IMG/VR virus record: IMGVR_UViG_3300031972_002446
Location: 101,941-165,940 of that record
DNA from: a virus
Length of the DNA stretch: 64,000 nucleotides
Strand: one strand, 5' to 3'
The position numbers were made by a program, and so were the translations under genes. The notes below the pieces were generated by a model. That model was not told where the DNA came from, ran no database searches, and worked only from the letters and a program-made list of their open reading frames with translations. How positions within the stretch are numbered: position 1 is the first letter of the stretch; each line of letters opens with the position of its first letter. This document shows positions 2,754-35,494 of the stretch, piece after piece.

Positions 2754-3679
2754 TGGCTGAGACTTTTAAAATGACAGTAAATGGTAAAAATCAGGAATTT
2801 TTGGTACAGTCTCCAAATTTAGCTCAACAAAGAGAAGGTCAGAAAGTTTACAATCAGGCATTTTCTGATGCTGTAAAGTCTGGGTCTATAGTTCGTGCTA
2901 AATTAGATGATTTGCTTAAAGATCAAGGATTATGGGATGATGAAAAGCAAGCTCGTTTTTTAGCTATTCAAGAAGAGTTAAACAATAACGAAAAAAGCCT
3001 AGCTACTGGAGGTATTTCTCTTGAGAACGCTAAAGCCCAGGCTTTAAAAATGAGAGATCTTAGAGAAGAGCTTAAAGAGTTAATTTCTGTTAGAACCAAT
3101 TTAGATACACACACAGCAGAAGGCCAAGCTGATAATGCTAGATTCAACTACTTAGTTTCATCTTGTGTGGTGTATAATAATACCAAGAAAGTTTATTTTC
3201 GTAATTATGAAGATTACCTGAATAAATCTTCTGATCCGGTTGCGGTGATTGGTGCTCAAAAATTAGCAGCTATGCTTTATGGCTTAGACTCTGAATTTGA
3301 GAAAAAATTACCAGAAAATAAGTTTTTGTTAGAATATAAGTTTGTTAATGATGATTTAAGATTCATTAATAAAGATGGTAAGTATGTTGATCAAGACGGT
3401 AGGTTAGTAGATGAAATTGGTAGGTATATCGACGAGGAAGGTAAATATGTAGATAAGGATGGAAATCTGGTTGATGAGTCGGGAGAATATTTAGTAGATT
3501 TTGTTCCTTTTACTGATGATGATGGTAAACCTGTAGTTTTGGAAAAGGGTAAAGATGAAAAACAATCAGAATCACAACAGGATAAACCTAAGGAAGAATC
3601 TACAACTGAACCTGAAGTCACACCTCAGAACACCTCTACCAATCAAGAGGTTCCTACCGAGGAAACTAACACAGAATAA
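2753..3679 (+). CDS. tail-region protein with acidic heptapeptide repeats (308 aa)
   Basis: Good ribosome site (AGAGGAG). Residues 1-200 are helical and charged. Residues 206-247 are six tandem heptads of the form D-x-D/E-G-x-Y/L-V/I (such as DKDGNLV), and the last ~50 residues are a low-complexity tail rich in Glu, Pro, Thr and Gln. It lies immediately before the tape measure, where the longer chaperone (gpGT-like) or a tape-measure partner would be expected. The DxDG repeats recall calcium-loop motifs, but the seven-residue spacing is not that of EF-hands or RTX repeats. Function unknown. Confidence 0.6.
   Translation: MAETFKMTVNGKNQEFLVQSPNLAQQREGQKVYNQAFSDAVKSGSIVRAKLDDLLKDQGLWDDEKQARFLAIQEELNNNEKSLATGGISLENAKAQALKMRDLREELKELISVRTNLDTHTAEGQADNARFNYLVSSCVVYNNTKKVYFRNYEDYLNKSSDPVAVIGAQKLAAMLYGLDSEFEKKLPENKFLLEYKFVNDDLRFINKDGKYVDQDGRLVDEIGRYIDEEGKYVDKDGNLVDESGEYLVDFVPFTDDDGKPVVLEKGKDEKQSESQQDKPKEESTTEPEVTPQNTSTNQEVPTEETNTE
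3368..3493 (+). repeat. six in-frame 21-bp repeats (DxDGxYV heptads)
   Basis: Six consecutive degenerate 21-base units encode the heptads of the preceding gene (residues 206-247). Asp is at position 1 and Gly at position 4 in five units; the first unit starts with Asn. Position 6 is Tyr or Leu, and 7 is Val, Ile or Leu. DNA identity between units is modest, so the array is old and kept at protein level. Confidence 0.8.
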
Positions 3680-3777: not shown

Positions 3778-6700
3778 ATGGCAGCAGCTTTTAATTTAAC
3801 GGCACAAATTAATTTAAGAGGACCTAGTAATACTAAGGTTATTGCTTCTCAAATTAGAAAGCAATTATCTAATATTAAAGTAAAAGTTAATCTTGATTTA
3901 AAAGGATCAGCAGCTAAAAATGTTACTAAGGTTAACAAGCAGTTACAGTTGTTACAGCAAAATGCTGCTAAAGCTAATGCTAGTGTTGCTAGTTTAAGTG
4001 CTACAGTATCTCAGTTAGGGGCCGGTTTAAATAATTTAGGTGGCTCTGGAGGCGTTCAGTCTCTTAACAAAGTGCAAAAACAAGTGCAAAGTACTGGGAG
4101 TGCTATTAGCTCAGCTACTACCCAAGTTCAAGAATTTGGAAAACAATCAGGCTTAGCTATTCGTAGATTCGCTGCTTTTAGTGCTGTTACTGGTGTTGTT
4201 TATAGTTTAACTAACGCTATTAATAGTGCTTTCAAAGAATTTGTAGCTTTTGATAAACAAATTGTTCGATTAAGTCAGGTAACAGGAACGACTGTTAGTG
4301 GCCTTTCTGGTATTACAAAAGAAATCTCTAATCTATCTAGCAATTTAGGTGTTGCGTCTTCTGATTTAGCTCAAGTATCTGTTACACTTTCTCAAGCTGG
4401 TTTAAGCGCTCAAGAAACTAAAATAGCATTAGAAGCCTTAGCCAAATCTGCATTAGCTCCTTCTTTTGATAATCTTAATAATACTGTTGAAGGTAGTATT
4501 GCTTTAATGCGTCAGTTTAGTATTAGTTCTGGGGAGTTAGAAGCTGCTCTTGGTAGTGTGAATGCTGTAGCTGCTAGTTTTGCTGTTGAAGCTGGCGATA
4601 TCATTGCTGCTATTCAGCGTACTGGTGGTGTGTTTGCTTCTTCTAGTAGGGGTATTAGTGAAGGTACGGCTGCTCTTAATGAATTTGTAGCTTTGTTTAC
4701 TAGTGTTAGAGCGACTACTCGTGAAAGTGCAGAAACTATTGCTACTGGTTTAAGAACTATCTTTACTAGAATACAAAGAGGTTCTACTATAGAGTCTTTG
4801 AAAGAGTTTGGTATTACGCTTACAGACTTACAAGGGAAATTTGTTGGACCCTTTGAAGCTGTTAAACGATTAAGCGAAGGTCTTAAAGGTTTAGATCCAA
4901 GAGATTTGCGTTTTGGTCAAATTGTCGAAGAGCTTGGTGGTTTCCGTCAAATTGGTAAAGTTATTCCTTTAATTCAACAGTTCGCCACTGCTCAAAAAGC
5001 TTTAGGGGTAGCTCAATCTGGGCAAGGCAGTTTATCTAAAGCGGCTATACAAGCTCAAGCATCTTTAGCAGTTCAATTTGAAAAAACCAGACAGTCTTTT
5101 GTTTCTTTAGTTAGAGATATAGGTAATAGCACAACTTTCAGAGGCATTGCTAAAGTTGCTTTAACAACAGCAAATGCATTTATAACATTGGCTTCAGCAT
5201 TAAAACCTTTATTGCCTATGATAACGGCCTTAGCTGCTTTTAAGGGAGTTTCGGCATTAAGTGAATTTGGTGGTGGTTTTCTTGGTGGGTTTGGAGGTAA
5301 AGGCGGAGGCGGAGGAGGCGGAGGTGGTCCATCAGGCCCAATGGGTCCAATAGGTCCTTCTTCTGGCGGTAGTGTTAGTGGTAGAGGTAGTGGTCGTAGG
5401 AATAAAGGCTCGGCTTCTAACAACAAAGCTTTAGCTAAAAATTCAGCAGCTTTAAACGCTAATACAACAGCACTAGGCTCTGTAAATACTAGTATGGCTA
5501 GCTTACTTCAGTCTATTGATGCTTTGTCTGAAGCTATTAATAATAAACAATCTGGAGTTAATACTCAAGGCTTTGCTAGTGGTGGTTTGGTTCCTGGAAG
5601 TGGTAATAGAGACACTGTATCTGCTATGCTAACTCCTGGTGAATATGTTATTCGTAAAAAAGCTGTTGAAAAAATAGGCGCAGATAATCTTAAAAAACTT
5701 AATCGTGGAGGTAGAGTACAAAGATTTACCGGTGGTGGTGGAGCTGAAGCTTTGACTGTAGACGATATTAAAATATTTGAATCTGGTCAAAACGCAGGAG
5801 GAATTCCTAAGGGACAATTAAAAAACATGCCGAGTAGCCTAGCACAATCTGTAATAGATCGTTATAAAGGTAAAGGTAAACTTAATCAAGAAACATTTAA
5901 AGCCTTAAAAGAAAAAGTAGCATTAAAAGCAGCACAAGATAAAGCAGTACCTTATGCACTAGTTGGCCTGAGAGGAACTGCTAAAGAAGTGTTTGCAGAA
6001 GCTGATGACGGAACTATGGTAAAGCTTATTGGCAGAACTTTAGGCGAGACTGATGATAATAAACCTTATGAAGATACTATGTTTAAGGATTTCAAAGACA
6101 CGGTAGCTAAAGTGGCTAATCAGATGGCTACAAAAGTACAAGCTCAGCCAGTATCGCCAGGCGATCTGAATAAAGATGCTATGGAAAAAGCAGGTTTCTT
6201 TAATGCTGTAGGAGCTTATCTCGAAGCGGCTGTAGCAAGTATTGGTGCTCCTTACGATAAAGATCAGTCTAATGATCCACTAGATTTTGCGCAAGGTTTG
6301 GGTTCTGCTTCTGGTTTATTTGGCTTACCATCGGACATGCCTGCTGATACCACAAGAACAGTTTTTAGTAGTGGTAAAAGTCCTGCAGATTTTCTGAAAC
6401 AAGTGAATAATTATAGAGCAAAATTAGCTGGAGGAGGCTCTGTTAGCGACACGGTTCCTGCATTATTAACTCCTGGTGAGTATGTAATCAATGAAAAGTC
6501 TGCAAAAAAATTAGGATCTCAAAAATTAGATCAACTTAATAGAGCAGATAGGATTCAAGGTTATGCTAGTGGCGGCCCTGTTGGTTTTGTTCAACGTTTA
6601 GCTAGTGGTGGTAGTCCTAGAGCAGATAAAATGGAATATCTGGAAAGAGTAGCTAAAAAACTTGGAATGACTGTTTCACAATACGAAAAAAGTATTAGAA

Positions 6701-9700
6701 GTAGAATTCTTCAAGGAGCAGAAACTAGAGCTACCGAGAAAACAGGTATGCAAGGAGATCTAAAGGATGTTATTGTTAAAAATATACAATCTATTGGAGA
6801 TGCAGATGTAGAGGGTATGGTTAGAACAGAAGTATCTGATCTAGTTAAGAAAATTTATACGGGATATGATGAGATTGATCCAGATTTGTTGAATCAGGGT
6901 ATAGATGAACTTGTTCAAGGTATGAAGGCAGGACTATCTCTTGATGAAATTAAAAATATGTCTGATGGGTTTAAAGAAATTTTAGACGCACAAATTACTG
7001 CTGGTGATGAACTATCTGGTGTTACAGAAGAGATGGCTAAGAAATTAGGATTTTTGACATCTAGAATGAAAGTTCGAGATATTGATATGAAAGCTTCAGG
7101 TTCTCAAAAAGCCGGGAAGTTTGGAGCTTTAGATGACGATCTTAGAAAAGCACAAAAGAGTATCGAGTCTGGTGTCGGTTCTATATTAGATGGTTTTTCA
7201 GAAGCTGTTTCTTTACAAAATCTTCCAGGTATGAAGAAATTATCTAGTGCTTATCCAGAATTGACTAAAAAGATTACGACAGCCGGTGATAAATTAGGTG
7301 GTACTTTTGGCTTAATAGGTACTGGGGCAACACTACTAAGCTCTAAAATGCCAGAGCTGGGTCATGCTTTTGATGAATTAGCTGGTACGGTTAGTGACCA
7401 AAGCGCAGCATTCGCAGGCTTCACTGGAGCTTTACAAAAAGGCGGCTCTTTAGGTATGAGCGCAGGAATAGTTGGAGGTCAAGCTTTTGGTAGAAGAGGT
7501 GCTGCTGTAGGAGGTGCTGCTGGCTTAGCTGCTGGAGCTGTCACAGGTTTTATTGACGCTTCTATTGTAAAAGAGACAGAATTAGCCTTTAAAGGTATCG
7601 CAGCAGCTTCGGCAGAGCTGGACAAAACTTTTAATAGGTTGGATACTGCTGTAACTGTTGAAGAAAGAGCAGCATTACAAGAGCAGGCGGCAGAAGATTA
7701 TAATAAACTTAATGCTGCTATACAAAGAGCAACTGATACAATTGATGGTAATAGATTGTGGAAATCTTTTAGTGCTGGTATTAGTGGTATGACAACAGCT
7801 ATGATTAGTTTAATTGGTGTCATTAATGCTGTTAAATTAGCACAAGTAGCCTCTGCTCTTCTACCAGGTAAAGTTTCCGGTGGCATTGTTAAAGGTTATG
7901 CTTCTGGTGGTTTTGCTAAAGGTGGTCAGTCTAGTGGTATGGGGGTTCCTGTTAGGTTAGCTTCTGGAGAAGCTGTATTTACGCCTCCTTTACCTGGCAC
8001 TCTTTCTGAAATGAAACAATTGAATCAGATTGATCGTGGTGGTTCTTCAAGTTTAAGCCGAAAAGGTCAGACAGGTGGTTCTTTTATTGTTCCGGGTAAT
8101 AGTAGTGGTAAGGTAGATAATCAAAGCGCTATTTTACCAGAAAACAGTTTTGTTTTAAGAAGAGATGCTACAGATACTCTTAAAGCTATGAGAGGAGGTC
8201 CGATATCTGCTGCTACAGGTGGATTAATAGGTAGTGGTAGTGTTGGTTTCGGTGGTAGCGGAGGTATTCGTGGTTATTCTGTTGGTGGAAATATACAAGG
8301 TTATTTTGGCGGAGGTAGAGTTGCTTCTGCTCTATTAGCAAAACTAGTGGCTAATCTGGGTCGTTTAGGTCCAGCAATAACTGCTGGATTTGGTAGAATG
8401 TCACCAGCACTCAAAGCAATAACAGGCCAACTCGCTACAATGGTAGGTATTAGTGCTTTGGCAGGACTTTTTTCAGGCTTTTTTAGCTTTTTTATGGGTT
8501 CGGCTGAACGAGACAGGGCTATTCTACAACAACAATTGCAACAATTAGAGAATTTAAATACATTGGTTGGTAATCAGCAGTCTATGGATGTAAGAAATGA
8601 AGCTTTCGCTGATAGACTAATACCTGCTGTAGATGCAATCGAAAATTCTGGTTTGTCTATGGATCAGAAAGAAATGCAATTTGGTAGATTTAGAACTCCT
8701 GGTGGTAGAATGAATGATGCTAATCTTTTAGGAGAGATGACAGCTCGTCAAGCTATCGGAGCAGATGCAGACCTAGAAGCTGTAGGACAGAATCAGTCTG
8801 TACAAGAATATTTAGATAGTCTAGATCCTACACAAAGACAAAAAGCTAACGCAGCTATTGATAAAGCTCAAGGAGAGTTATTAAGAAGTACTTTTATAGA
8901 AAAAAGAAAAAGAGAAGGAATGGATGAAGTTGAGGCTTCGAGAGCTTATGATTCTGATCCTCAGGCTGCCAAAGCAGAGGCTCAAGAAGCTCTTGGAGAA
9001 AAGTCTAGGGCTGAGGGATTAGCTAAACGTATGCAAATTATCAATAGGTCTATTAATAAATTTACTCTTAATTTAGTAGATGTAATGAATCGATTAGGCA
9101 GCGTTATGAATCGAACAATCGGAGATTTAAATGCTAATATAGATAAAATGAGTCAGGTTTCTGATATTTACAGCGGAGGTCAAGCGGGTTCGCTAAATCC
9201 TAACGAAGATAATGTAAGAATTTTATCTAATATTACTGCTGCTAGTAATGCAGAATTAGCGCAAGCTGTTGGTCAAATTAATAAAGATCTTGGAGATACT
9301 AAAGAAACCCAAACGATGGCAGGTCTTATCAAGGGTATTCAAGTCTTGCAAAAAGAGCTGCCTTTAATTCTTAGACAAACAGGAACTGGTGGAGATTTAG
9401 ACGCTGGTTCAGAAACTAGTATTCGTGGTAGATTAGACACTATGTTTCAAGGTTTAGATATTGGTGAAAATTTAAAAAGAGATCTTAAGAGTAATGTTAT
9501 TAATTTTATTAATGATAAAACAGGTTCGAGACAAGGAGACTCTTTTGAAGATTTAGCAAACTATATAGATGGACTGAAGGAATTAGATGAGGCTGCTGAG
9601 CAAGCCAGAGCAACTTTTGAAAAGTATGCTAAAGAACAAGCTGATTTTAATAGAAAACTTGGAGGCTTATCTAATCAACTAAGCGCTCAACTATCTAAAC

Positions 9701-12700
9701 TTGCAGATAACGCTATTAGAGTTAAAGATATTCAATTAAATAGTGCTTTACAATTATCAGAAAAATTTAATAAAACATTATCGTTAAGTAGTCTTAATGC
9801 ACCATTCATGAATTCTGTATCAGGATTAACCGGAGGTACCACAGATCCTGAAAAAATTGGTAGAGAGTTAGCTTCTGCTATCGAAAGACAAAGACAAATT
9901 GAAGCTGATCCTAATTCCCAAACGACTGCTTTAGGCTCTGGTGAAGTTGCTAAATTAACTTCTAAAATTAATAAATATCAAAAAGCTTTAGATATATTAG
10001 CAACTAGTACAGATAGAGCATCTAATGCATTGAAAAAGATTGATGAGCAACAAAGAATTTCTTCTGGACGAAGAAGTGGTGTTATGAGTTTTCTTTCTAA
10101 CATAAATAACCCAGAAGCTTTGTTAGGTATGAGGCAAGAACAACAGTCTTATTCTAATGTTATGGCAGGTACAGGAACTATTACAGATATTGCTAGAGGT
10201 ACTAATAGTCTTAATATGATGGAGTCAACTCAAACTCCTGAGCAGTTCCAGAAAACGCAACAAAAATTCTTTGAAAATGCTATGCGTATTTTAGAGGCTA
10301 ATGGTGCTAATCCCGCTGTCTTTAAACAATTTAGAGAATCATTCGCTGGTGATTTCGCCGCTCCTGATGCAAATCCTGCTGTTAAACCATTTATTGATGC
10401 GTATCAAGAAGCTGCTAGAATACAAACAGAAGCTGTTAAGCAACAATCTAATTTATTAAATAGTGGAGCAGTAATAGCAGCGGATACTTTAAAGAAAAGC
10501 GCAGACGCTTTCGCTACTAAAATGAAAGAAGCCACTGCAGAAATTGTTAAAGAGTTTAACGCAGTTGCTGATAGACTAGGTTTAGGCAAACCTAAGGACT
10601 CTAATAAAATGTCTAGTGGAGGTGTGGTATATGCTTCTGCTGGTCAATTTGTTAATTTTACGCCTAAAGGCACCGATACTGTTCCTGCTATGTTAACGCC
10701 TGGTGAGTTTGTTGTTAATCGATCAGCAACTTCTAAGAATTTACCTTTATTAAAATCTATTAATAGTGGTGGCTATAGTAGTGGTGGTAGTGTTGGTTAT
10801 TATGCTGATGGTGGACAAATCGGACCAGGTTTAAAAACTGTTAATCGTAATTTTAATCTTTTATCTCCTTATCCAGAAAAAAGTTTAGACAATTTCCAAG
10901 AATATAAAGATCATGTACCATATGGGTATATGGATAGGTATTTTGGAAATAAAGATAGTGCTGTTTCTGAACGAGAGCTTAAATCAATGAATCAAGCTAT
11001 TCAGAAACATCAAAAACAATACTTTACCACAACTAAGGTTAATCGCTATAAAAGCTTAAGATCATTAGTGCCTGAATGGGAGAAAAACGAGAAAAACCAA
11101 GACAAACAAGCTAGTTTTTGGGATTGGATTACAGGGTCTAGTCCTGATAGAGGCATGAAATTTAATTCTGGTAATTTTAAAAGTGTTAAAGATGCTAAAA
11201 TTTTTGCTGGAACAATGGAAGCTGCTCATGGTATTCCTTTAGGGCGGGGTGTTGGTACTGGGGATATAGGAAGTTCTACATATAGTGGTAGATTTTATGG
11301 TGGCGATTCTTCATTTCCTATGGATAGTGCTACAAGTCAAGGATTTGGAGAGCTTTTACAACAAAGAATTATACAATCTCGTTCTACAGATTGGGAAGCG
11401 TTTTTCTATGGTTTAGCTTCAAAGGCATTGCCTACTATTGGAGGTATTATTGGCGGTGGTATTGGTGCTGTTTTAGGTGGTACGGCTGCGGTAGCTTCAG
11501 GAGGTCTGGGTGCGTGGGGTGTTCCCATCTTTACTGTAGCAGGTGCTATGGGTGGTAATATGGCTGGTCATGCGGTTAATAGTTTTGCATACAGTATGTT
11601 ACCTGATTCATGGCAAAAGCGTATTGAGCAAAAGGTTAATGACAATCCTGGTTCGTATAATGCCGGACAATGGTTAGGCTTCGGAGCTGATGTGGTAGCA
11701 GGTGGTATGGGCGCCAATGCTGTTGCGAAAGGTATTAGCAGATCTATACCTCCAAGAGCAATAGTTCAACAATTTGTCAGACAGGGTGGTACTACAGGAG
11801 TTAATGCGGCTCGCCCGACTGTAGAAGATGCTATTGATATGGCTACAAAATCTGCTGGAACTAAAGCTGCTAATAATTCTAGAAATATTGGTAATAAAAT
11901 ACCAGTTACAGGTCAGCCAAATGCTACATTAAATATTGGTTCTGTAGATGATATATTGAGTTTACCACCAGGAATAAAACCATCTGGAGGAGCTAGACCT
12001 ACTGGGTTACCTGGAGGAGGAGCTAGACCTACTGGGTTACCTGGACCTACTGGGGCATCTGGTGCTACTGGTGGTGCAGCATCTGCTACTGCTAGAGCTG
12101 GTGCAATTCAAATGAAAAAATTAGCTATGGCTCTAGAAGAAACTTTGTATGCAGGTAAACCGCAACAATTAGTAGATGATATTATGTCTCCTAATGGTAA
12201 AGGTATATATGAGGTATTAGGTAGAGACCCTCAAATTCAAAGTGCTACTTTTAGAAAATTACAAAAACTTCTACATCCAGATATGATGAGACATTCTAAA
12301 ATGTTTGATGGTATGGGTTTAGATGATGCTGCAATAAAACTTTTCCAAAAACGATTGAGCTCAATGAAAACTGTTTTAGATAATAGTCTCATGCGAGCAG
12401 ATTATGATCAGCTTTTAGGGAGAGGTCATTATGCTGACGATCTTTTAGATAATTTATCGCGTAATGGATTTAATGTTAGACAACTGTTGCAGCCAGGGTC
12501 GAGAGCTGCCGCAGCAACACCTAAACCTAAACCAGGTAGCCAAGCGCCGCCAAAACCAAAGGCTGAATCACCAAAACCTAAACCAGATCAACCTAAACCG
12601 GGTCAGCCTAAACCTAAACCAGATCAACCTAAGCCAGGGCAATCTTCTAAACCTAAGCCAGGACAATCGTCTAAACCTAAGCCAGGACAATCGTCTAAAC

Positions 12701-15700
12701 CTAAGCCAGGACAATCGTCTAAACCTAAGCCGGGTGAAACACCTAAGCCGAGTCAACCTAAACCACCTACTGGTAGCGGGTCAAGGACTTGGTCACAATT
12801 TCTGGACGATTGGATGGGTGGTAGCGTTGGTCGGGGTTACTATACCGGTTCAGGTATTGGTGAAATGCTTAGTGGCATGCTCGGTTTTGGTTTAACACCT
12901 GATCCGTCTAAAAGATCATCATCACAAAGCGAATCACCTAAGCCTTTACCTGGTGGTTATCCAGATAAATCTTCTAAAGCTAAAGATCAAGCAGCTAAAG
13001 ACGCTATTGAGCAAATGACAGAAAAAACCAAAAGAACATTTGGAACAACAGATAGGGGTATTATGGACCAAGTTCAATTTGGAACAGACGGTCAATACAA
13101 GTTCGGCCAGGTTCAAAATGCTGCAGCCTCTTTAAAGCTAAAAGATCCACTTAAAAGAGTTAATTTCTTATATAGAAATATTAGTATTCCTGAATTTGAA
13201 CTAGGTATGGGTGGTCAGGGTTCTACAGGCGTAGCTGAGGGTCAGTTATTGACACAAAAACAGCGTAAAGATGCCGAAGAAGAATATTTATTCATTAATA
13301 AAAAAGTCTCAGATATGTATAGTAACCCTTCTGCTCATGGGAATACCTTACAAGCTTACCTCCAAAGAAGAGGTCAGCTTAAGACTATGCTAGATAGTGA
13401 TTTTAGAGCTCAATATAATCTTGGTGTTCCTACAGGAGATAAGCCTACATTTAATCTGAAACCTCCTGTAAAACCCAATACAGAACCGCCTACAGAGAAA
13501 GAAAAAAGAATGCTTAGAGATGGTGTTATAGATGATAATGCCACTCTTCAAGGGCTATTAGCACAGCAAGATACTGGAACAGCAAATAGAAAAAACTCAA
13601 CTGTTATGGCTGGTTTTACACAAAGATTTTCAGATCTTGAAGAGACTAAAAATACAGAAGGCGCTAGCTTTGCTCTCTTAAAGAAATTTAATTCTGTCAA
13701 ATTAGATTATATTAAAGCTTTTGGTCAAGTTAAAGGAGTTAGTGATAAAGCTATAGACCCAGGTTTATTAAGCGTTGCTTCTACTCAAGAACAGGTAGAT
13801 GCTGAAGTAAAAGCTTTAAAAACAGATATATCTTCTAAGACTAATAATAAAGATTGGATGGCTGGAAACTCACAAGCTCAAGCTACAGATAAGCAAAAGA
13901 TTAAAACAAAAGCAGATATAGCAAAAATGGTTGCAAAATATTCTGAACAATCTGGAGTTACAGATCCTAAAAAACTTAAAGATTGGTTACAGAAACAATC
14001 AGGAATTCGTCAAGAGCTTAAAGGTAGACATTCTTTATGGGATAATTATTATACAAAAGAAAAGGAATTTAAAGACAAAGAATTAGAACATTTATTCCAA
14101 ACAGAACGATGGGGATATAGAGATGAGTTAAAGAAAAACCCTGAAGGAAGAATGTATGGTGATGGTAGTATGGGTATGAATAGTTTAGAGTATTTACTAT
14201 TTAATCATCCTGCTAAAGTTGCTCATAATTTTATTAATCCTTTTAATCAAAACAAAAGTACGGATGAATTATTATACGGGGCTCCTCTAGGCACTGTTAA
14301 ACCAGAAACACATGCTACCAGAACTCAAAATGCTATTAGAAAATATCTCAAATCTTTTGGTAAATCTTTAGGCATACAAGCTCCTATCGATGAAAACACC
14401 AATGTCGATGAATGGTTTAAGAATTTAGATCCTAATTTAATGACAGACTTAAATGCTGAAGGAAATCTAAACCAATTAATGAAGGTAGGCAATGAAAGTC
14501 AAGGCGCTACCATGTTAGATATTCTCAAAAATATGTATCAGCCAGGTAGTCAAGAAGTCACAGACAATGTTGCTGCTCGTTTTGGTCTTTGGTCTGTGGT
14601 TGGTGCTGATGATGCTAGAAACAAAGATTTTGGTAAAGAATATCAATCAGAATTCTTAAGAAGACTATACAAATATGTGGAGAGTACATCTACACAGAAA
14701 AGTAAAGAGTCTTTCCAAATGACTGAAAGTGTTGATACATATCTTAAGATGATCGATGCTTTAGCTGCTTATACGGGTCAAATGGATCCTGCTATTTATG
14801 GTAAAGCTTCTGATAATTTCGGACCTTTAGTAATTCCAAAACAATTAAAAGGTAAAACCGAAAAAGAACAAATGAAAAATCTTTCTAGAGTTATTGGGAG
14901 AGATTTTTATAAATATACAAGATCAACATTTGATTATGAATTTGGTGGCATCACGAGTGCTGAAGATTATGGTAAGGTTGGAGATCGCTTAGGTATTCAG
15001 GGTTACAGTCCAGAAGATCTTAGAAGAACAGTTTTTGCTGATAGAAATACTTTAAGACGTATATATGAGCGTAAAGCTTATAGCGTTGGTGGAGGTTTAA
15101 CAACTGCTGATACTTTAGTTAATACTGGTATGGCCACATTATTTAATGCTAATAAAGACAAAACCGTTGATTCTGGGGATTTAGCTAATTTTTATGATTT
15201 AGATGGTAATGTCTTGAGCGAAGGCACTACTATAATGGGTTTGATATCTAAAGCTTTAGATTTTGGAAAAAGAATGCCTGTTGCCAATAGACAGGGTATG
15301 ATTGATTATGCTAAAGACTTCGATTTCAAGGGAAACCTAGCAGACGATAGTTACGCTAAATATGAGGAAAATCTTGATAATAATTTACACGCTTTAAAAT
15401 CCACATATAAACTTTGGGATTCGCTTGTTTATTACAGTAAGCCTAACCCTGGAACAACCAAAGCAGAGACTGTTGATTTAAACGCAGCAGGACCTGTTCT
15501 ACAATCAGCTACGGCGGGAGGTTCTATAAACATTGCTGGTACTCAGATTCCTTCAGTAGATTTCTTAAGTAAGTATCAAAACGCATTGGAAACTACTGGC
15601 GCTAAGGCTTATGGTCAAATTGTAGAAGCTGGTAGTATTTTCAATGATCATGTAGGAGGTAGTAGCAACTTTACATTAGCTGGTGCTCCAAATCCGTTTG

Positions 15701-16395
15701 ATAATCCAGAATTTATTGCTTTAAAGAAATTCAAACAATTACAAGAAGTTGGTACTGTTAATGCTGCTACCGGTGGTCATATTTCTGGAGGTATGGGTGC
15801 AGGCAAAGCGTCTCTAGTAAACTACAAACCTGTAGGAACCGATACTGTACCAGCCATGCTCACCCCAGGTGAATACGTTATCAATAGAAGTGCAACGCAA
15901 CAGCACTTACCTTTATTAAAAGCTATTAATAATGGTGGACTATCTTATGCTAGTAATGGAGGAATGATTCAACCTCAGTATAAAAACATTGGAGGTTTAG
16001 CATCGTCTGCTCTTAGTTATATGGGTGGTGGAGGTTTGGATATGGGGAATGCTTCCAGAGTATTTGACGGCTTCGTGTCAAGTTTTAGTAAAGAAATTGC
16101 ATCTTTTGGTGGTTTAATTAATAATTTAGCCAAAGTATTCCCAGCACTATCCGGTCCTGTTAATAATTTTGGTAATCATGTAGATAAGTTAGCTAAATCC
16201 TTAAATGATCTGCAAAATATTGAGATTAAAGGACCGAACATCCCAGAAACCATTAGGTTGAATAGTGATGCTATTAGGGTTGAGATAGACTATGTTCCTG
16301 GATCTAATAAGCTCTCACCAGATGCTGAGGATAAATTAGCAAGCCAGGTAGCAGCTAAACTTAAGACATTAGTTGATTTGGGTAGAATAAGTTGA
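3778..16395 (+). CDS. giant tail tape measure protein with embedded J domain (4,205 aa)
   Basis: Sets tail length and is expected to occupy the tail lumen and be ejected with DNA. Residues ~120-450 match the TP901-type tape-measure domain (minor-tail region with IATGLRTIFTRIQRG and ELGGFRQIGKVIPLIQQ). Hydrophobic segments lie near 462-505, 1239-1265, 1554-1577 and 2552-2600. A motif of the form DTVPAMLTPGEYVI recurs at about 612, 891, 2300 and 4022, with two degenerate copies near 1380-1480. Residues ~2809-2875 form a DnaJ-like J domain (YEVLG, HPD at 2833-2835, ADYDQLLG). Collagen-like Gly-X-Y stretches (near 515-530 and 2735-2765) and a Pro-Lys linker (2915-2998) break up the helices. At about 0.15 nm per residue it predicts a tail near 0.6 micrometre. 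No lytic or peptidase motif was recognised. Confidence 0.95.
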   Translation: MAAAFNLTAQINLRGPSNTKVIASQIRKQLSNIKVKVNLDLKGSAAKNVTKVNKQLQLLQQNAAKANASVASLSATVSQLGAGLNNLGGSGGVQSLNKVQKQVQSTGSAISSATTQVQEFGKQSGLAIRRFAAFSAVTGVVYSLTNAINSAFKEFVAFDKQIVRLSQVTGTTVSGLSGITKEISNLSSNLGVASSDLAQVSVTLSQAGLSAQETKIALEALAKSALAPSFDNLNNTVEGSIALMRQFSISSGELEAALGSVNAVAASFAVEAGDIIAAIQRTGGVFASSSRGISEGTAALNEFVALFTSVRATTRESAETIATGLRTIFTRIQRGSTIESLKEFGITLTDLQGKFVGPFEAVKRLSEGLKGLDPRDLRFGQIVEELGGFRQIGKVIPLIQQFATAQKALGVAQSGQGSLSKAAIQAQASLAVQFEKTRQSFVSLVRDIGNSTTFRGIAKVALTTANAFITLASALKPLLPMITALAAFKGVSALSEFGGGFLGGFGGKGGGGGGGGGPSGPMGPIGPSSGGSVSGRGSGRRNKGSASNNKALAKNSAALNANTTALGSVNTSMASLLQSIDALSEAINNKQSGVNTQGFASGGLVPGSGNRDTVSAMLTPGEYVIRKKAVEKIGADNLKKLNRGGRVQRFTGGGGAEALTVDDIKIFESGQNAGGIPKGQLKNMPSSLAQSVIDRYKGKGKLNQETFKALKEKVALKAAQDKAVPYALVGLRGTAKEVFAEADDGTMVKLIGRTLGETDDNKPYEDTMFKDFKDTVAKVANQMATKVQAQPVSPGDLNKDAMEKAGFFNAVGAYLEAAVASIGAPYDKDQSNDPLDFAQGLGSASGLFGLPSDMPADTTRTVFSSGKSPADFLKQVNNYRAKLAGGGSVSDTVPALLTPGEYVINEKSAKKLGSQKLDQLNRADRIQGYASGGPVGFVQRLASGGSPRADKMEYLERVAKKLGMTVSQYEKSIRSRILQGAETRATEKTGMQGDLKDVIVKNIQSIGDADVEGMVRTEVSDLVKKIYTGYDEIDPDLLNQGIDELVQGMKAGLSLDEIKNMSDGFKEILDAQITAGDELSGVTEEMAKKLGFLTSRMKVRDIDMKASGSQKAGKFGALDDDLRKAQKSIESGVGSILDGFSEAVSLQNLPGMKKLSSAYPELTKKITTAGDKLGGTFGLIGTGATLLSSKMPELGHAFDELAGTVSDQSAAFAGFTGALQKGGSLGMSAGIVGGQAFGRRGAAVGGAAGLAAGAVTGFIDASIVKETELAFKGIAAASAELDKTFNRLDTAVTVEERAALQEQAAEDYNKLNAAIQRATDTIDGNRLWKSFSAGISGMTTAMISLIGVINAVKLAQVASALLPGKVSGGIVKGYASGGFAKGGQSSGMGVPVRLASGEAVFTPPLPGTLSEMKQLNQIDRGGSSSLSRKGQTGGSFIVPGNSSGKVDNQSAILPENSFVLRRDATDTLKAMRGGPISAATGGLIGSGSVGFGGSGGIRGYSVGGNIQGYFGGGRVASALLAKLVANLGRLGPAITAGFGRMSPALKAITGQLATMVGISALAGLFSGFFSFFMGSAERDRAILQQQLQQLENLNTLVGNQQSMDVRNEAFADRLIPAVDAIENSGLSMDQKEMQFGRFRTPGGRMNDANLLGEMTARQAIGADADLEAVGQNQSVQEYLDSLDPTQRQKANAAIDKAQGELLRSTFIEKRKREGMDEVEASRAYDSDPQAAKAEAQEALGEKSRAEGLAKRMQIINRSINKFTLNLVDVMNRLGSVMNRTIGDLNANIDKMSQVSDIYSGGQAGSLNPNEDNVRILSNITAASNAELAQAVGQINKDLGDTKETQTMAGLIKGIQVLQKELPLILRQTGTGGDLDAGSETSIRGRLDTMFQGLDIGENLKRDLKSNVINFINDKTGSRQGDSFEDLANYIDGLKELDEAAEQARATFEKYAKEQADFNRKLGGLSNQLSAQLSKLADNAIRVKDIQLNSALQLSEKFNKTLSLSSLNAPFMNSVSGLTGGTTDPEKIGRELASAIERQRQIEADPNSQTTALGSGEVAKLTSKINKYQKALDILATSTDRASNALKKIDEQQRISSGRRSGVMSFLSNINNPEALLGMRQEQQSYSNVMAGTGTITDIARGTNSLNMMESTQTPEQFQKTQQKFFENAMRILEANGANPAVFKQFRESFAGDFAAPDANPAVKPFIDAYQEAARIQTEAVKQQSNLLNSGAVIAADTLKKSADAFATKMKEATAEIVKEFNAVADRLGLGKPKDSNKMSSGGVVYASAGQFVNFTPKGTDTVPAMLTPGEFVVNRSATSKNLPLLKSINSGGYSSGGSVGYYADGGQIGPGLKTVNRNFNLLSPYPEKSLDNFQEYKDHVPYGYMDRYFGNKDSAVSERELKSMNQAIQKHQKQYFTTTKVNRYKSLRSLVPEWEKNEKNQDKQASFWDWITGSSPDRGMKFNSGNFKSVKDAKIFAGTMEAAHGIPLGRGVGTGDIGSSTYSGRFYGGDSSFPMDSATSQGFGELLQQRIIQSRSTDWEAFFYGLASKALPTIGGIIGGGIGAVLGGTAAVASGGLGAWGVPIFTVAGAMGGNMAGHAVNSFAYSMLPDSWQKRIEQKVNDNPGSYNAGQWLGFGADVVAGGMGANAVAKGISRSIPPRAIVQQFVRQGGTTGVNAARPTVEDAIDMATKSAGTKAANNSRNIGNKIPVTGQPNATLNIGSVDDILSLPPGIKPSGGARPTGLPGGGARPTGLPGPTGASGATGGAASATARAGAIQMKKLAMALEETLYAGKPQQLVDDIMSPNGKGIYEVLGRDPQIQSATFRKLQKLLHPDMMRHSKMFDGMGLDDAAIKLFQKRLSSMKTVLDNSLMRADYDQLLGRGHYADDLLDNLSRNGFNVRQLLQPGSRAAAATPKPKPGSQAPPKPKAESPKPKPDQPKPGQPKPKPDQPKPGQSSKPKPGQSSKPKPGQSSKPKPGQSSKPKPGETPKPSQPKPPTGSGSRTWSQFLDDWMGGSVGRGYYTGSGIGEMLSGMLGFGLTPDPSKRSSSQSESPKPLPGGYPDKSSKAKDQAAKDAIEQMTEKTKRTFGTTDRGIMDQVQFGTDGQYKFGQVQNAAASLKLKDPLKRVNFLYRNISIPEFELGMGGQGSTGVAEGQLLTQKQRKDAEEEYLFINKKVSDMYSNPSAHGNTLQAYLQRRGQLKTMLDSDFRAQYNLGVPTGDKPTFNLKPPVKPNTEPPTEKEKRMLRDGVIDDNATLQGLLAQQDTGTANRKNSTVMAGFTQRFSDLEETKNTEGASFALLKKFNSVKLDYIKAFGQVKGVSDKAIDPGLLSVASTQEQVDAEVKALKTDISSKTNNKDWMAGNSQAQATDKQKIKTKADIAKMVAKYSEQSGVTDPKKLKDWLQKQSGIRQELKGRHSLWDNYYTKEKEFKDKELEHLFQTERWGYRDELKKNPEGRMYGDGSMGMNSLEYLLFNHPAKVAHNFINPFNQNKSTDELLYGAPLGTVKPETHATRTQNAIRKYLKSFGKSLGIQAPIDENTNVDEWFKNLDPNLMTDLNAEGNLNQLMKVGNESQGATMLDILKNMYQPGSQEVTDNVAARFGLWSVVGADDARNKDFGKEYQSEFLRRLYKYVESTSTQKSKESFQMTESVDTYLKMIDALAAYTGQMDPAIYGKASDNFGPLVIPKQLKGKTEKEQMKNLSRVIGRDFYKYTRSTFDYEFGGITSAEDYGKVGDRLGIQGYSPEDLRRTVFADRNTLRRIYERKAYSVGGGLTTADTLVNTGMATLFNANKDKTVDSGDLANFYDLDGNVLSEGTTIMGLISKALDFGKRMPVANRQGMIDYAKDFDFKGNLADDSYAKYEENLDNNLHALKSTYKLWDSLVYYSKPNPGTTKAETVDLNAAGPVLQSATAGGSINIAGTQIPSVDFLSKYQNALETTGAKAYGQIVEAGSIFNDHVGGSSNFTLAGAPNPFDNPEFIALKKFKQLQEVGTVNAATGGHISGGMGAGKASLVNYKPVGTDTVPAMLTPGEYVINRSATQQHLPLLKAINNGGLSYASNGGMIQPQYKNIGGLASSALSYMGGGGLDMGNASRVFDGFVSSFSKEIASFGGLINNLAKVFPALSGPVNNFGNHVDKLAKSLNDLQNIEIKGPNIPETIRLNSDAIRVEIDYVPGSNKLSPDAEDKLASQVAAKLKTLVDLGRIS
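11986..12042 (+). repeat. two 27-bp identical units at 30-bp period (collagen-like coding)
   Basis: The 27-base unit at 11986-12012 is repeated exactly at 12016-12042. It encodes GGARPTGLP twice and is followed by PGPTGASGATGG, a Gly-X-Y-like stretch inside the tape measure. Exact DNA identity indicates recent duplication. Confidence 0.85.
12645..12734 (+). repeat. 24-bp tandem repeat, about 3.7 copies (SKPKPGQS linker)
   Basis: The units at 12645-12668, 12669-12692 and 12693-12716 are identical, and a fourth degenerates after about 15 bases. Each encodes SKPKPGQS. They sit in a longer Pro-Lys-rich segment (about 12,520-12,770) that joins the J domain to the next part of the tape measure. 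Exact copies suggest slippage, so copy number probably varies between relatives. Confidence 0.88.
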
Positions 16396-31150: not shown

Positions 31151-32758
31151 CTAGACTTGCCAACATTTCTTAACAATATAAGAATCACGATTTTTAGATT
31201 TATCTAAAGTTATTAATACGGTATTACCTTCTATCAGTAAATCTTTATATTTGATGTATTCTTCTGGAAATATAACAAGATCGGTGATTCCTGTAGAATC
31301 TGCAATTTTAACAAAAGCCATTTCTTGTCCCGGATTTAAACCTCTTTTAGTTTTTATAACATTAATATCACTAACTTCTGCGCCTACGATAGGTGTTTTG
31401 GGACATTTATCATTATTTAGATCTTTACATTCAGAATTAGCCGAGTAAATATCACACCCATCTATTTTATGGCATGTTAAAGAGGTCCCCAAATGAAACT
31501 TTTCGTTATCTGCTATCCATTCAGGAGTATCGTCAAGATTGTAAGGAGGGTTGTTAATGCTTTTAATAATGGAAGATATTATGTTTTTTCTTTTAGCTGT
31601 AATTTTTTTTACGTCATTATTTATTAATTTATCAAGTATTAACGATATCTCTGTGTTTTTATCAATAAATTGTTCAGCTATAGTAAGCTCTCTATCTGTC
31701 AAACTATTTAAACAATCATAGTAAAATAGCATACGATTTCTTGATATAGTTATATTATCTATAGCTCCTACGGATATTAAGGCTTTAGCTGCTGTAGAGT
31801 TGATATGTCTAAGAAATTTATAATATAATTCAATAAATGTTATATTGTCTAATTCTATATTAGATAATAAATCTTTTATTTTTTCAAAAACAGAGTTGCC
31901 AACTCCTTTAACATTTGTTAAACCAAAACATATATTACCTTTAGTAGATATAAAAAAATCTTTTTCGGGTTGTTGGATAGAGGGTCCATATACTTCTATA
32001 TCCATCTGATTAGCATTGCCTATAAGCTCTTGTATTTCTCTCAAAGGATCCATTTTATCTTTAGCAAATTTTAAGTAAGATGCAAAAAAATGTTTAGGGA
32101 AATGAGCTTTAACATAAGCAGACAGGTAGGCGTTGTAAGCATAGCTAACAGCATGGCTTTTATTAAAAGAATATCTTTGAGATTTTTCAATCCAACCAAA
32201 AATCTGCTCAGCCTCATCTTTATTGATAATTTTGGCACTTGATGACTTTTTCATAAAAAGTTTTTTAATTTTCATCATCTCTTCTGGCTTCTTTTTACCA
32301 ATAGCTTTACGTAGCTTATCTGCTTCTGTCAAGTCAAATTCTGCTACATGTTGACATATTTGCATCGCTTGTTCTTGATATACCATTTCTCCATATGTTG
32401 TTTTTAAAATAGGCTCTAAAGAAGGATGAAAGAAATCTATCTCCTCTTGTAAATTTTTCTTATCTATATAATGATTGCTAACAGATTTACCATCTCTGTA
32501 AGCCTCTAAACAACCCGGTCGCATGATACTAATTAGCGCTGATAATTGTTCTATATTTTCTGGCTTAAGTTTTTTAGACATCATTTGACCCAACCTAGAC
32601 TCTAACTGAAAACACCCCTTAGTGTTTCCTTCAGCTATTAGTCTCCATGTTTGTGGACAATCCAAGTCTATTTTCTCTATATCAATATCTATATCGATAC
32701 CACCATCAGCATTTACATCAAAACAGCAGTTGCACTCATTAAAAGATATATGTTTCAT
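31151..32758 (-). CDS. dnaE: DNA polymerase III alpha subunit, C-terminal half (fingers onward) (535 aa)
   Basis: Second half of a split replicative polymerase. It begins, after ~20 residues, exactly where the first half stops (IDIDIEKIDL in the linker before GNTKGCFQLES). Visible blocks are QLSALISIMRPG (72-82), TTYGEMVYQEQAMQI (120-134), the fingers motif SFNKSHAVSYAY (197-208), HhH-like LTNVKGVGNSVFEKI and a C-terminal OB-like domain (VGAEVSDINVIKTKRG to the end). The fingers bind incoming dNTP, but all three catalytic Asp residues are in the other gene, so the proteins must assemble in trans. Start overlaps the exonuclease stop by ATGA. The ssb promoter overlaps its 3' edge. Confidence 0.93.
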   Translation of the reverse strand: MKHISFNECNCCFDVNADGGIDIDIDIEKIDLDCPQTWRLIAEGNTKGCFQLESRLGQMMSKKLKPENIEQLSALISIMRPGCLEAYRDGKSVSNHYIDKKNLQEEIDFFHPSLEPILKTTYGEMVYQEQAMQICQHVAEFDLTEADKLRKAIGKKKPEEMMKIKKLFMKKSSSAKIINKDEAEQIFGWIEKSQRYSFNKSHAVSYAYNAYLSAYVKAHFPKHFFASYLKFAKDKMDPLREIQELIGNANQMDIEVYGPSIQQPEKDFFISTKGNICFGLTNVKGVGNSVFEKIKDLLSNIELDNITFIELYYKFLRHINSTAAKALISVGAIDNITISRNRMLFYYDCLNSLTDRELTIAEQFIDKNTEISLILDKLINNDVKKITAKRKNIISSIIKSINNPPYNLDDTPEWIADNEKFHLGTSLTCHKIDGCDIYSANSECKDLNNDKCPKTPIVGAEVSDINVIKTKRGLNPGQEMAFVKIADSTGITDLVIFPEEYIKYKDLLIEGNTVLITLDKSKNRDSYIVKKCWQV

Positions 32759-33453
32759 GTTTTAAACGCATCCTTAAATTTAATTTTTTGACTCAAGCTT
32801 TTATGAAGTTTTAAAAATCTAATCAAGATATTAGCACAATCTTCTACATCTTTAATAGCGTCATGAGCATTATCCTTACTAAGACCTAAATAATCTCTCA
32901 TATTATCCAGAGATAACGATTTGACTTCGGAGATATAGGTTGTCCACATAAACATCACATGTAATAAGTCGATTTTATCCCTGGGGTGAAATAGACAAGT
33001 CTCTCCCTCCCTATTAGTATTATCATATTTTTGACTTAGCCTATTTACAATAGTCATGTCAAACCTGAGTATATTATACCCGCAAGCTATAGGTGCTGTA
33101 AACTGTGATTTTTTACCGCCATAACCTTTATAATGATATTTATCTAAATATGATACAAACTGAGCCCATGATTGTTTCTGTTCCGGATATTTTTTCCAGT
33201 CTTTTAAAATCTGTGCTGCCGATACCGATTTAACCTTGCCGTGCCAATCTAAAATATCAGAATCAGTATAAGGGTTATCTATAGAGCAGTCTTCTAGTTT
33301 TTCGGGCTTGATAAATGTATTAAACTGAGATTTATCAATGATTTCTAATCTAATTGGGTCTACCATCACCGATGATAGTTGAACAGGGCTGCACAGCGAT
33401 GGATCCTTGCCATCTGTTTCAAAATCAAAGACACAAATTTTATTTTTAATCAT
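32755..33453 (-). CDS. DnaQ-like 3'-5' exonuclease (232 aa)
   Basis: DEDDh exonuclease: motif I CVFDFETDG with D10 and E12, motif II in GYNILRFDMTIVNRL, motif III AHDAIKDVEDC with H197 and D202. It is expected to proofread for the split phage polymerase. The gene lies between the two polymerase halves and overlaps the downstream half by ATGA and the upstream 58-residue gene by ATGA, so all are probably made in fixed ratio. Length suits a single exonuclease domain with no clamp-binding extension I can see. Confidence 0.93.
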   Translation of the reverse strand: MIKNKICVFDFETDGKDPSLCSPVQLSSVMVDPIRLEIIDKSQFNTFIKPEKLEDCSIDNPYTDSDILDWHGKVKSVSAAQILKDWKKYPEQKQSWAQFVSYLDKYHYKGYGGKKSQFTAPIACGYNILRFDMTIVNRLSQKYDNTNREGETCLFHPRDKIDLLHVMFMWTTYISEVKSLSLDNMRDYLGLSKDNAHDAIKDVEDCANILIRFLKLHKSLSQKIKFKDAFKT

Positions 33454-33626
33454 TTAATCTCTTCTACTTTCTTTTTATATTCGAATAAAACATTTTTGTT
33501 GTTTTCTAAATCGACAGCATTACTTTGTATTTCACAACAACTTTTTTTTATTTCTGGTACCTTCAGATACTCTCTATTTTTATATGTAAATCTTTGTCCA
33601 GTTTTTAGTTTAGAAAAATCTATCAT
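33450..33626 (-). CDS. small conserved-looking protein between polymerase and exonuclease (58 aa)
   Basis: A 58-codon gene joined by ATGA overlaps at both ends: its ATG overlaps the stop of the polymerase N-half and its stop overlaps the exonuclease ATG. The protein begins MIDFSKLKTGQRFTYKNREY and has a CC pair and SNAVDLENNKNVLF, ending KVEEIK. This resembles small phage proteins of the form 'LkxGxxFxYxgxxYxKv...NAVdLxxGxxxxF'. Function unknown; the exact coupling argues it is translated. It fills what would otherwise be a 170-base gap. Confidence 0.8.
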   Translation of the reverse strand: MIDFSKLKTGQRFTYKNREYLKVPEIKKSCCEIQSNAVDLENNKNVLFEYKKKVEEIK

Positions 33627-35494
33627 ACTATAGCCTTTATTTTTAGTGTTCTTTGAGTGTGCATTATTTTATCAAGTAAAGCGATACCTAAAATATCGAA
33701 CTTAATAACACCTATAGATTCTAGATCTCCCATTTCGAAACCAGCGATACTTTGTTTTGTCTTAGTATCCCATAACATAGGACATATAGAGCTTAATTCG
33801 TTATTAGCGATTGCGATACCAGCAGCATGTTTAGATTGATTATATTTCGACCCTTCAAGCCTGATTGCTTGTTCAAACCTTTTTGAAAGAGGACCTTGCA
33901 ATTCTCCTTTATCATCTATATAACACCAGTCTTTTAATTTTTTAGAATTATTTTCCAAAGACCATTTGATAATGGAAGCATCTTCCATTTCCTGTAATTC
34001 GTCTGCAATTTTAGCTTCATCAGGAATATTTTTAGTTATACGATTCATTTCTTCAAAAGAAATATTACCGTATACTCTTAAAACTTCCTTCAGAGCCCCT
34101 CTACCTTTAAGTGTATTAAAAGTTATCATTTGAGAAACTTTGTCATTGCCGTATTTATCTTTAATATAATTAATGATAGATTCTCTATATTCGATAGGGA
34201 CATCTACATCAATATCGGGCATAGATATATGAGATTTAGTGTTTCTGCCTGTGTTATAGAATCTTTCGAAAATTAAATTATATTTAAGAGGATCAATTGC
34301 TGTGATACCAATCAAATAAGAAACCAAGCATCCCGCAGCACTACCCCTACCGGGACCAGGCAAACAGTTTTGAGATTTAACATATTCTACAATATCTCTG
34401 ACAATTAAAAAGTAACTTGCAAGGTTTGCAGCTTCTAGAACTTCAAATTCTTTCTTAACCCTATCTACATATATTTGATGTTTATCTTTGGGTATTATGT
34501 CTTTTATTTTTTGCTTCCAACCTATTCTACATAATTCTCGAATATATTCTATGGGGGTTTGTTTGTTTGGACATCTAAAATCTGGAAGTTGTGGAGAGAT
34601 TAATATATTGTAGTCCTCGCAAAGACTGTCTATTTTTAGAGTATTTTCTAATTCTTCCTTGTCGTGTATTTCAGACATCTCTTCAGCCGAAAGTATATAA
34701 TATTTATCGGAAGTAAAGAATGATGACAAGGGAACTTTTTCTTCATTTATTATTTTTTTTGATATTTCAGGAAGTGTTGTCTTTAAAGAACTACATAACA
34801 AAACTCTTTGATCTACAGCATCCGCCATTTCACAGTAATGAGCGTCTATAGTAGCGACTCTTTGTAAATTATTATCTATTGCTAATTGTCTTAGATTTTT
34901 ACCAATAGTTTGTTGATGGGTATTATCTGTGTCCATAAGCTGTATTTCTACATAGACATTGTCTTTACCAAATACCTCTTGCAATTGCTCAATATGTTTT
35001 AATCCTTTATCTTGCCAATTGTCTACTAAGGATTCTTTTTCGAAACTATAAATTTCATTACCTAGAGTAGAACCCGGATGTCCAGATATACATATCAAAT
35101 TCTGTTTATTTATTATTTTTTTTAATATTTGAATATCGAGTCTTGGTTTATGATAAAAATATTTTTCGTTATTAGATAAAGATACTATCTTAATCAGATC
35201 TTGCCAGCCATCATAATTTTTACAAAGGACTACGAGATGTGATAATGATTTTTTATTTTTATCTTTTATTGATGCGTCGCTATTGGTAATATACAACTCG
35301 CAACCCATAATTGGTTTGATATCATTTTTCTTCATGGTTTTATAGAAATCTACATTTCCAGATATAGTACCATGATCTGTAATAGCACAGGACTTAAAGC
35401 CTAACTTTTTACATCTTTTGGCTATTTGTTCAGGTTTGGAGAGCCCGTCCAATAAGCTATAATGACTATGCACATGTAAAGGGATGTACATCAA
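33623..35494 (-). CDS. dnaE: DNA polymerase III alpha subunit, N-terminal half (PHP and palm) (623 aa)
   Basis: First half of the split C-family polymerase. The PHP domain opens with HVHSHYSLLDG (7-17) and ITDHGTISG, with metal-ligand His and Asp kept. The palm has PGPGRGSAAGC near 376-387, PDIDVD near 425-430 with two catalytic Asp, and IKFDILGI near 598-605 with the third. The protein ends about 20 residues later, in the linker to the fingers, which are encoded by the other gene. No intein sequence is present at the break. It overlaps the upstream nuclease gene by ATGA. Confidence 0.95.
   Translation of the reverse strand: MMYIPLHVHSHYSLLDGLSKPEQIAKRCKKLGFKSCAITDHGTISGNVDFYKTMKKNDIKPIMGCELYITNSDASIKDKNKKSLSHLVVLCKNYDGWQDLIKIVSLSNNEKYFYHKPRLDIQILKKIINKQNLICISGHPGSTLGNEIYSFEKESLVDNWQDKGLKHIEQLQEVFGKDNVYVEIQLMDTDNTHQQTIGKNLRQLAIDNNLQRVATIDAHYCEMADAVDQRVLLCSSLKTTLPEISKKIINEEKVPLSSFFTSDKYYILSAEEMSEIHDKEELENTLKIDSLCEDYNILISPQLPDFRCPNKQTPIEYIRELCRIGWKQKIKDIIPKDKHQIYVDRVKKEFEVLEAANLASYFLIVRDIVEYVKSQNCLPGPGRGSAAGCLVSYLIGITAIDPLKYNLIFERFYNTGRNTKSHISMPDIDVDVPIEYRESIINYIKDKYGNDKVSQMITFNTLKGRGALKEVLRVYGNISFEEMNRITKNIPDEAKIADELQEMEDASIIKWSLENNSKKLKDWCYIDDKGELQGPLSKRFEQAIRLEGSKYNQSKHAAGIAIANNELSSICPMLWDTKTKQSIAGFEMGDLESIGVIKFDILGIALLDKIMHTQRTLKIKAIV

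Follow-up and report, generated by a model that had tools for sequence, protein, structure and literature searches.

Does the tape measure protein (TMP) of this phage carry a J domain, and would such a domain engage the DnaK of the host? The window analysed (64,000 nucleotides; bases 101941-165940 of the 165940-base virus record IMGVR_UViG_3300031972_002446) includes an open reading frame of 4205 amino acids, which is a TMP judging from its family matches: PF10145 (PhageMin_Tail; residues 181-375, E 3e-21) and several PHROG tape-measure families. A hydrophobicity scan of this protein gave several hydrophobic stretches, with the peak at residues 2554-2575. The features considered below, all on the + strand, are:

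3778..16395, +, TMP gene, 4205 aa (PF10145 and PHROG tape-measure families)
10915..11958, +, conserved block on the N-terminal side of the slot (residues 2380-2727; 41% identical to L008, 28% to L005)
about 11398-11583, +, Gly-rich hydrophobic stretch containing GxxxG (sequence, hydrophobicity)
11959..13005, +, variable slot (residues 2728-3076; contents differ in related TMPs)
11986..12071, +, linker rich in Gly and Pro, encoded by short tandem repeats and preceding the J module
12112..12189, +, helical stretch just before the J core (alignment; partly common with L088, LVDDI.. P-GKG)
12208..12420, +, putative J-domain core, YEVLG to ADYDQLLG (residues 2811-2881; motifs, profile comparisons, shuffles)
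12274..12282, +, HPD motif (residues 2833-2835; sequence, conserved in L088)
12520..12750, +, PKP-rich linker that follows the J module (approximate limits; tandem repeats 12575-12731)
13006..16392, +, conserved C-terminal TMP block (27-47% identical to the L008, L004, L003 and L005 relatives)

Signature and profile comparisons of the candidate J domain

The preliminary description of this DNA had read a DnaJ-type J domain from three landmarks, all of which lie where it placed them: YEVLG at residues 2811-2815 (12208-12222), HPD at 2833-2835 (12274-12282) and ADYDQLLG at 2874-2881 (12397-12420). HPD occurs once in the TMP (0.04 expected by chance). A J-type spacing pattern, devised after both J-carrying sequences described here had been seen, was absent from all 20000 shuffled versions of the whole TMP; in the 0.99 million ORF residues of all the loci its matches were confined to DnaJ-type phage proteins and the two TMP lineages with the J domain. 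The order of elements is that of the J-domain proteins of PF00226, including HscB: helix I (YEVLG), helix II, HPD, helix III and a closing Y-D, the helix positions around HPD being taken from low-confidence models. The TMP domain differs from those proteins in its sub-threshold scores, in its position inside a 4205-aa tape measure, and in the spacing from helix I to HPD, which is about 4 residues shorter (22 residues from Y to H, compared with 26 in E. coli DnaJ).

The search with PF00226 proposed in that description did find DnaJ, the sole Pfam match of the segment (best E 0.017), but the best score, 15.7 bits, is under the Pfam gathering cut-off of 27.8. NCBIfam gave three weak matches, two of them to J proteins (HscB, E 0.034; DnaJ_bact), and no library match of the window's domain passed the curated cut-offs in Pfam or NCBIfam. 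A two-homologue profile searched against the PDB (E up to 10) matched four chains, of which 1wjz_A and 2ys8_A are J domains, with HPD falling on HPD in the 1wjz_A alignment; this proportion is far above chance, since J sequences make up about 77 of the 177635 distinct PDB sequences (J profile, E 0.001). When compared by hhalign with eight J domains (that of E. coli DnaJ and seven others, taken from phage records), the domain gave 74% over 62 columns, and both HPD and the closing YD were aligned. The whole TMP was compared in the form of 63 overlapping windows: three of them overlap the domain and gave 70, 37 and 3%, and all the others gave at most 0.7%. An HMM built from eight J domains scored the window core at 14.3 bits, against 10.6 bits for the best of about 2800 scored shuffles. 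AlphaFold2 models of the domain, made from just one or two sequences, were of low confidence (pLDDT 49), and Foldseek with these models gave no J domain match.

A diverged second lineage

The TMP of contigs 3300028571_000013 and 3300028569_000016 (L088 and L089, identical over the domain) is encoded in a 5855-aa open frame and has GKGVFEILGKPPQTGSGVLKLQRLLHPD at the matching place. The L088 domain is homologous to that of the window (BLASTP E 7e-12, 30% identity), occupies the slot corresponding to the J slot of the window TMP, and shares with it conserved columns that include L-G, KLQ-LLHPD, F and Y. The HPD is thus kept in a diverged homologous tape measure; a lack of such conservation was one of the outcomes that the preliminary description had named as refuting its reading. 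The two J-carrying lineages are well separated, because the block upstream of the slot is just 28% identical between the window and L088 TMPs. Taken alone, the L088 domain had no Pfam or NCBIfam match, and its core scored 4.0 bits with the J HMM, a value equalled or exceeded by 12 shuffles; it is therefore tied to J domains through the domain of the window, not independently. At L116/L117 (records G048 and G049) the open frame of the TMP is 5855 aa long, for which the usual length scaling would give a very long tail.

The agreement of weak library matches, the profile-profile comparisons and the HPD kept in a homologous tape measure support J-domain identity well at the sequence level. The window domain is probably a J domain, and its homology to J domains we regard as very likely.

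Peptide-pattern scans of viral contigs and genome contigs for further J relatives gave only these two lineages, and a protein search of isolate phages gave no close relative of the domain. PF00226 had no match in 47 related records even with E values up to 1 allowed; this type of search is insensitive, as it does not find the domain of the window either. None of the phage DnaJ matches examined, which cover part of 74 records, lay within a tape measure, and a full-text literature search, in which few subscription journals were covered, found no tape measure with a J domain.

Contents of the variable slot in related tape measures

The alignment of the window TMP with L008 runs to residue 2727 and restarts at 3077. 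The slot so delimited holds nothing but low-complexity sequence in L008, a HExxH domain in L003, and two copies of one repeat in L005, L090 and L098. L088 and L090 have DNA that is 78% identical as far as L088 base 7039 and that diverges over the J module (7123-7512), with protein similarity resuming at L088 residue 2516; as read from the alignments, this difference is a domain replacement in the slot. The J domain appears to be a module bounded by linkers, and the slot that holds it appears to exchange its contents among related phages.

HExxH was found in 6 of 36 related TMP frames (0.12 expected), the frames being non-redundant, of at least 2000 aa and in many cases cut off by the locus ends. 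Downstream stretches gave one further record (L072) and extra copies in L078 (same record as L022), so that the frames with the motif are L003/L067, L014, L020/L077, L022/L078, L032, L057 and L072. Position relative to the J slot was compared for L003 only, and not all the motifs share that slot. Some of these tape measures have an E[VI]FA-type motif downstream. No curated peptidase model passed for the HExxH contents, which gave sub-threshold matches only (for example Peptidase_M4, E 0.095, in L072); from the motif, these domains are probably zinc metallopeptidase-like.

The repeat of about 45 aa (YEA-DTR-G...IEA-SQ-EA--LLKKQGL-VL) is present in two copies in L005, L066, L090 and L098 and has no Pfam match; a GspF (secretion)-like name for the L005/L090 repeats was dropped, as Pfam gave it no support. 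In L093 the TMP lies in two overlapping frames at about 6278-6330, either an assembly error or a real frameshift.

Proposed engagement of host DnaK

Stimulation of Hsp70 by J domains depends on HPD. The HPD loop of the window TMP would bind the host Hsp70 (DnaK) and stimulate its ATPase, and the TMP would in this way recruit DnaK, a recruitment that can reasonably be inferred from the motif; the stimulation of Hsp70 by J domains is described in PMC3486835. Neither Hsp70 nor DnaJ families were detected in the window's own record, which may be incomplete; with no detectable Hsp70 in the phage record, the partner would therefore be host DnaK. If the domain is a J-domain homologue, engagement of DnaK is likely.

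Our overall reading, to which we give a probability of about 0.6, is that the TMP carries a J domain as an exchangeable module and engages host DnaK through it, slightly more probably after ejection than in assembly. After ejection the domain may help to pull in or fold the TMP; alternatively, it may divert DnaK, as Rki of phage RB43 does. We favour action after ejection by a small degree only, because elsewhere the slot holds HExxH domains or, in L008, no recognisable domain. From the L008 slot it follows that the J domain is not generally needed for tail assembly, and the variable contents lean toward an accessory, perhaps host-directed role. Published work that locates TMPs to the inner membrane as injection proceeds (PMC13190303) and the link of Gly zippers to delivery across membranes (PMC10240207) were also counted toward a post-ejection role. 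A more speculative extension, which we consider doubtful, is that in the giant TMPs of this phage group a Gly zipper crosses the membrane and is followed by a slot for exchangeable cargo, one such cargo being the J domain, which would capture DnaK in the host cytoplasm after ejection, either ratcheting the TMP or the genome inward, much as Hsp70 is used in mitochondrial import, or seizing control of the chaperone.

The same domain could instead be a true J domain serving tail assembly, tethering host DnaK to the nascent TMP, which would be kept soluble until the tube polymerises, and remaining as a passenger in the virion. The TMP is made in the cytoplasm, where DnaK resides, it is very long with several hydrophobic stretches, and the record yielded no phage Hsp70, all of which suit such a role; related TMPs nevertheless lack the J domain (low-complexity sequence only in L008, other contents in L003 and L090), and we consider this explanation somewhat improbable. 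Retention of a J-like fold that has no DnaK function and serves, for instance, as a spacer or to bind some different protein is unlikely: the shortened helix I-HPD spacing and the strong divergence of the domain would agree with it, but both lineages retain the HPD, on which Hsp70 stimulation depends, despite 30% identity. Chance resemblance, in which an unrelated helical domain of two TMP lineages happens to contain YEVLG and HPD, would account for the sub-cut-off library matches, the low-confidence AlphaFold2 models without a Foldseek J match and the lack of recognition of L088 alone, but it is very unlikely given that the results from Pfam, NCBIfam, the PDB profile search and hhalign agree in indicating J domains and that shuffles did not reproduce the J HMM score of the window core.

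Comparison with known systems

If a swappable J-domain module does engage host DnaK, the tail of this phage, and perhaps a protein that it injects, would be linked to the Hsp70 machinery of the host, and there would be a testable handle on the host factors acting on tape measures. Some tape measures carry enzymatic domains, e.g. peptidoglycan hydrolases; these are likewise accessory domains, but enzymes rather than co-chaperones. Rki of phage RB43 (PMC3486835) is also a phage-encoded J domain and interacts with host DnaK; it is a separate early protein, whereas the putative J domain of the TMP sits within a tail protein. The DnaJ genes of large phages (PMC7824862, PMC12619734) place J domains in phage genomes, but separate from tape measures. 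Sle1-type effectors of actinobacterial contractile injection systems (PMC13277306) resemble the window TMP in being TMP-like proteins with diverse functional domains; they serve contractile injection systems, whereas the window TMP belongs to a tailed phage and has its domain inside the chain. For contractile injection systems, TMP-related effectors that can be reconfigured are already known (PMC13277306), and the present reading, if true, suggests that tape measures can also carry exchangeable host-directed domains, as those effectors do.

Other observations

By eye, an EF-hand-like stretch (GNKD-S-VS--E) lies at about residues 2386-2402 of the window TMP and is also present in L065; an EF-hand-like loop at about residues 1550-1573 of the L076 TMP frame gave a sub-threshold Pfam match. 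On the - strand of the window (31151-35494), the DNA polymerase is divided between two ORFs (31151-32758 and 33623-35494), and the 232-aa ORF between them has an RNase_T exonuclease match.
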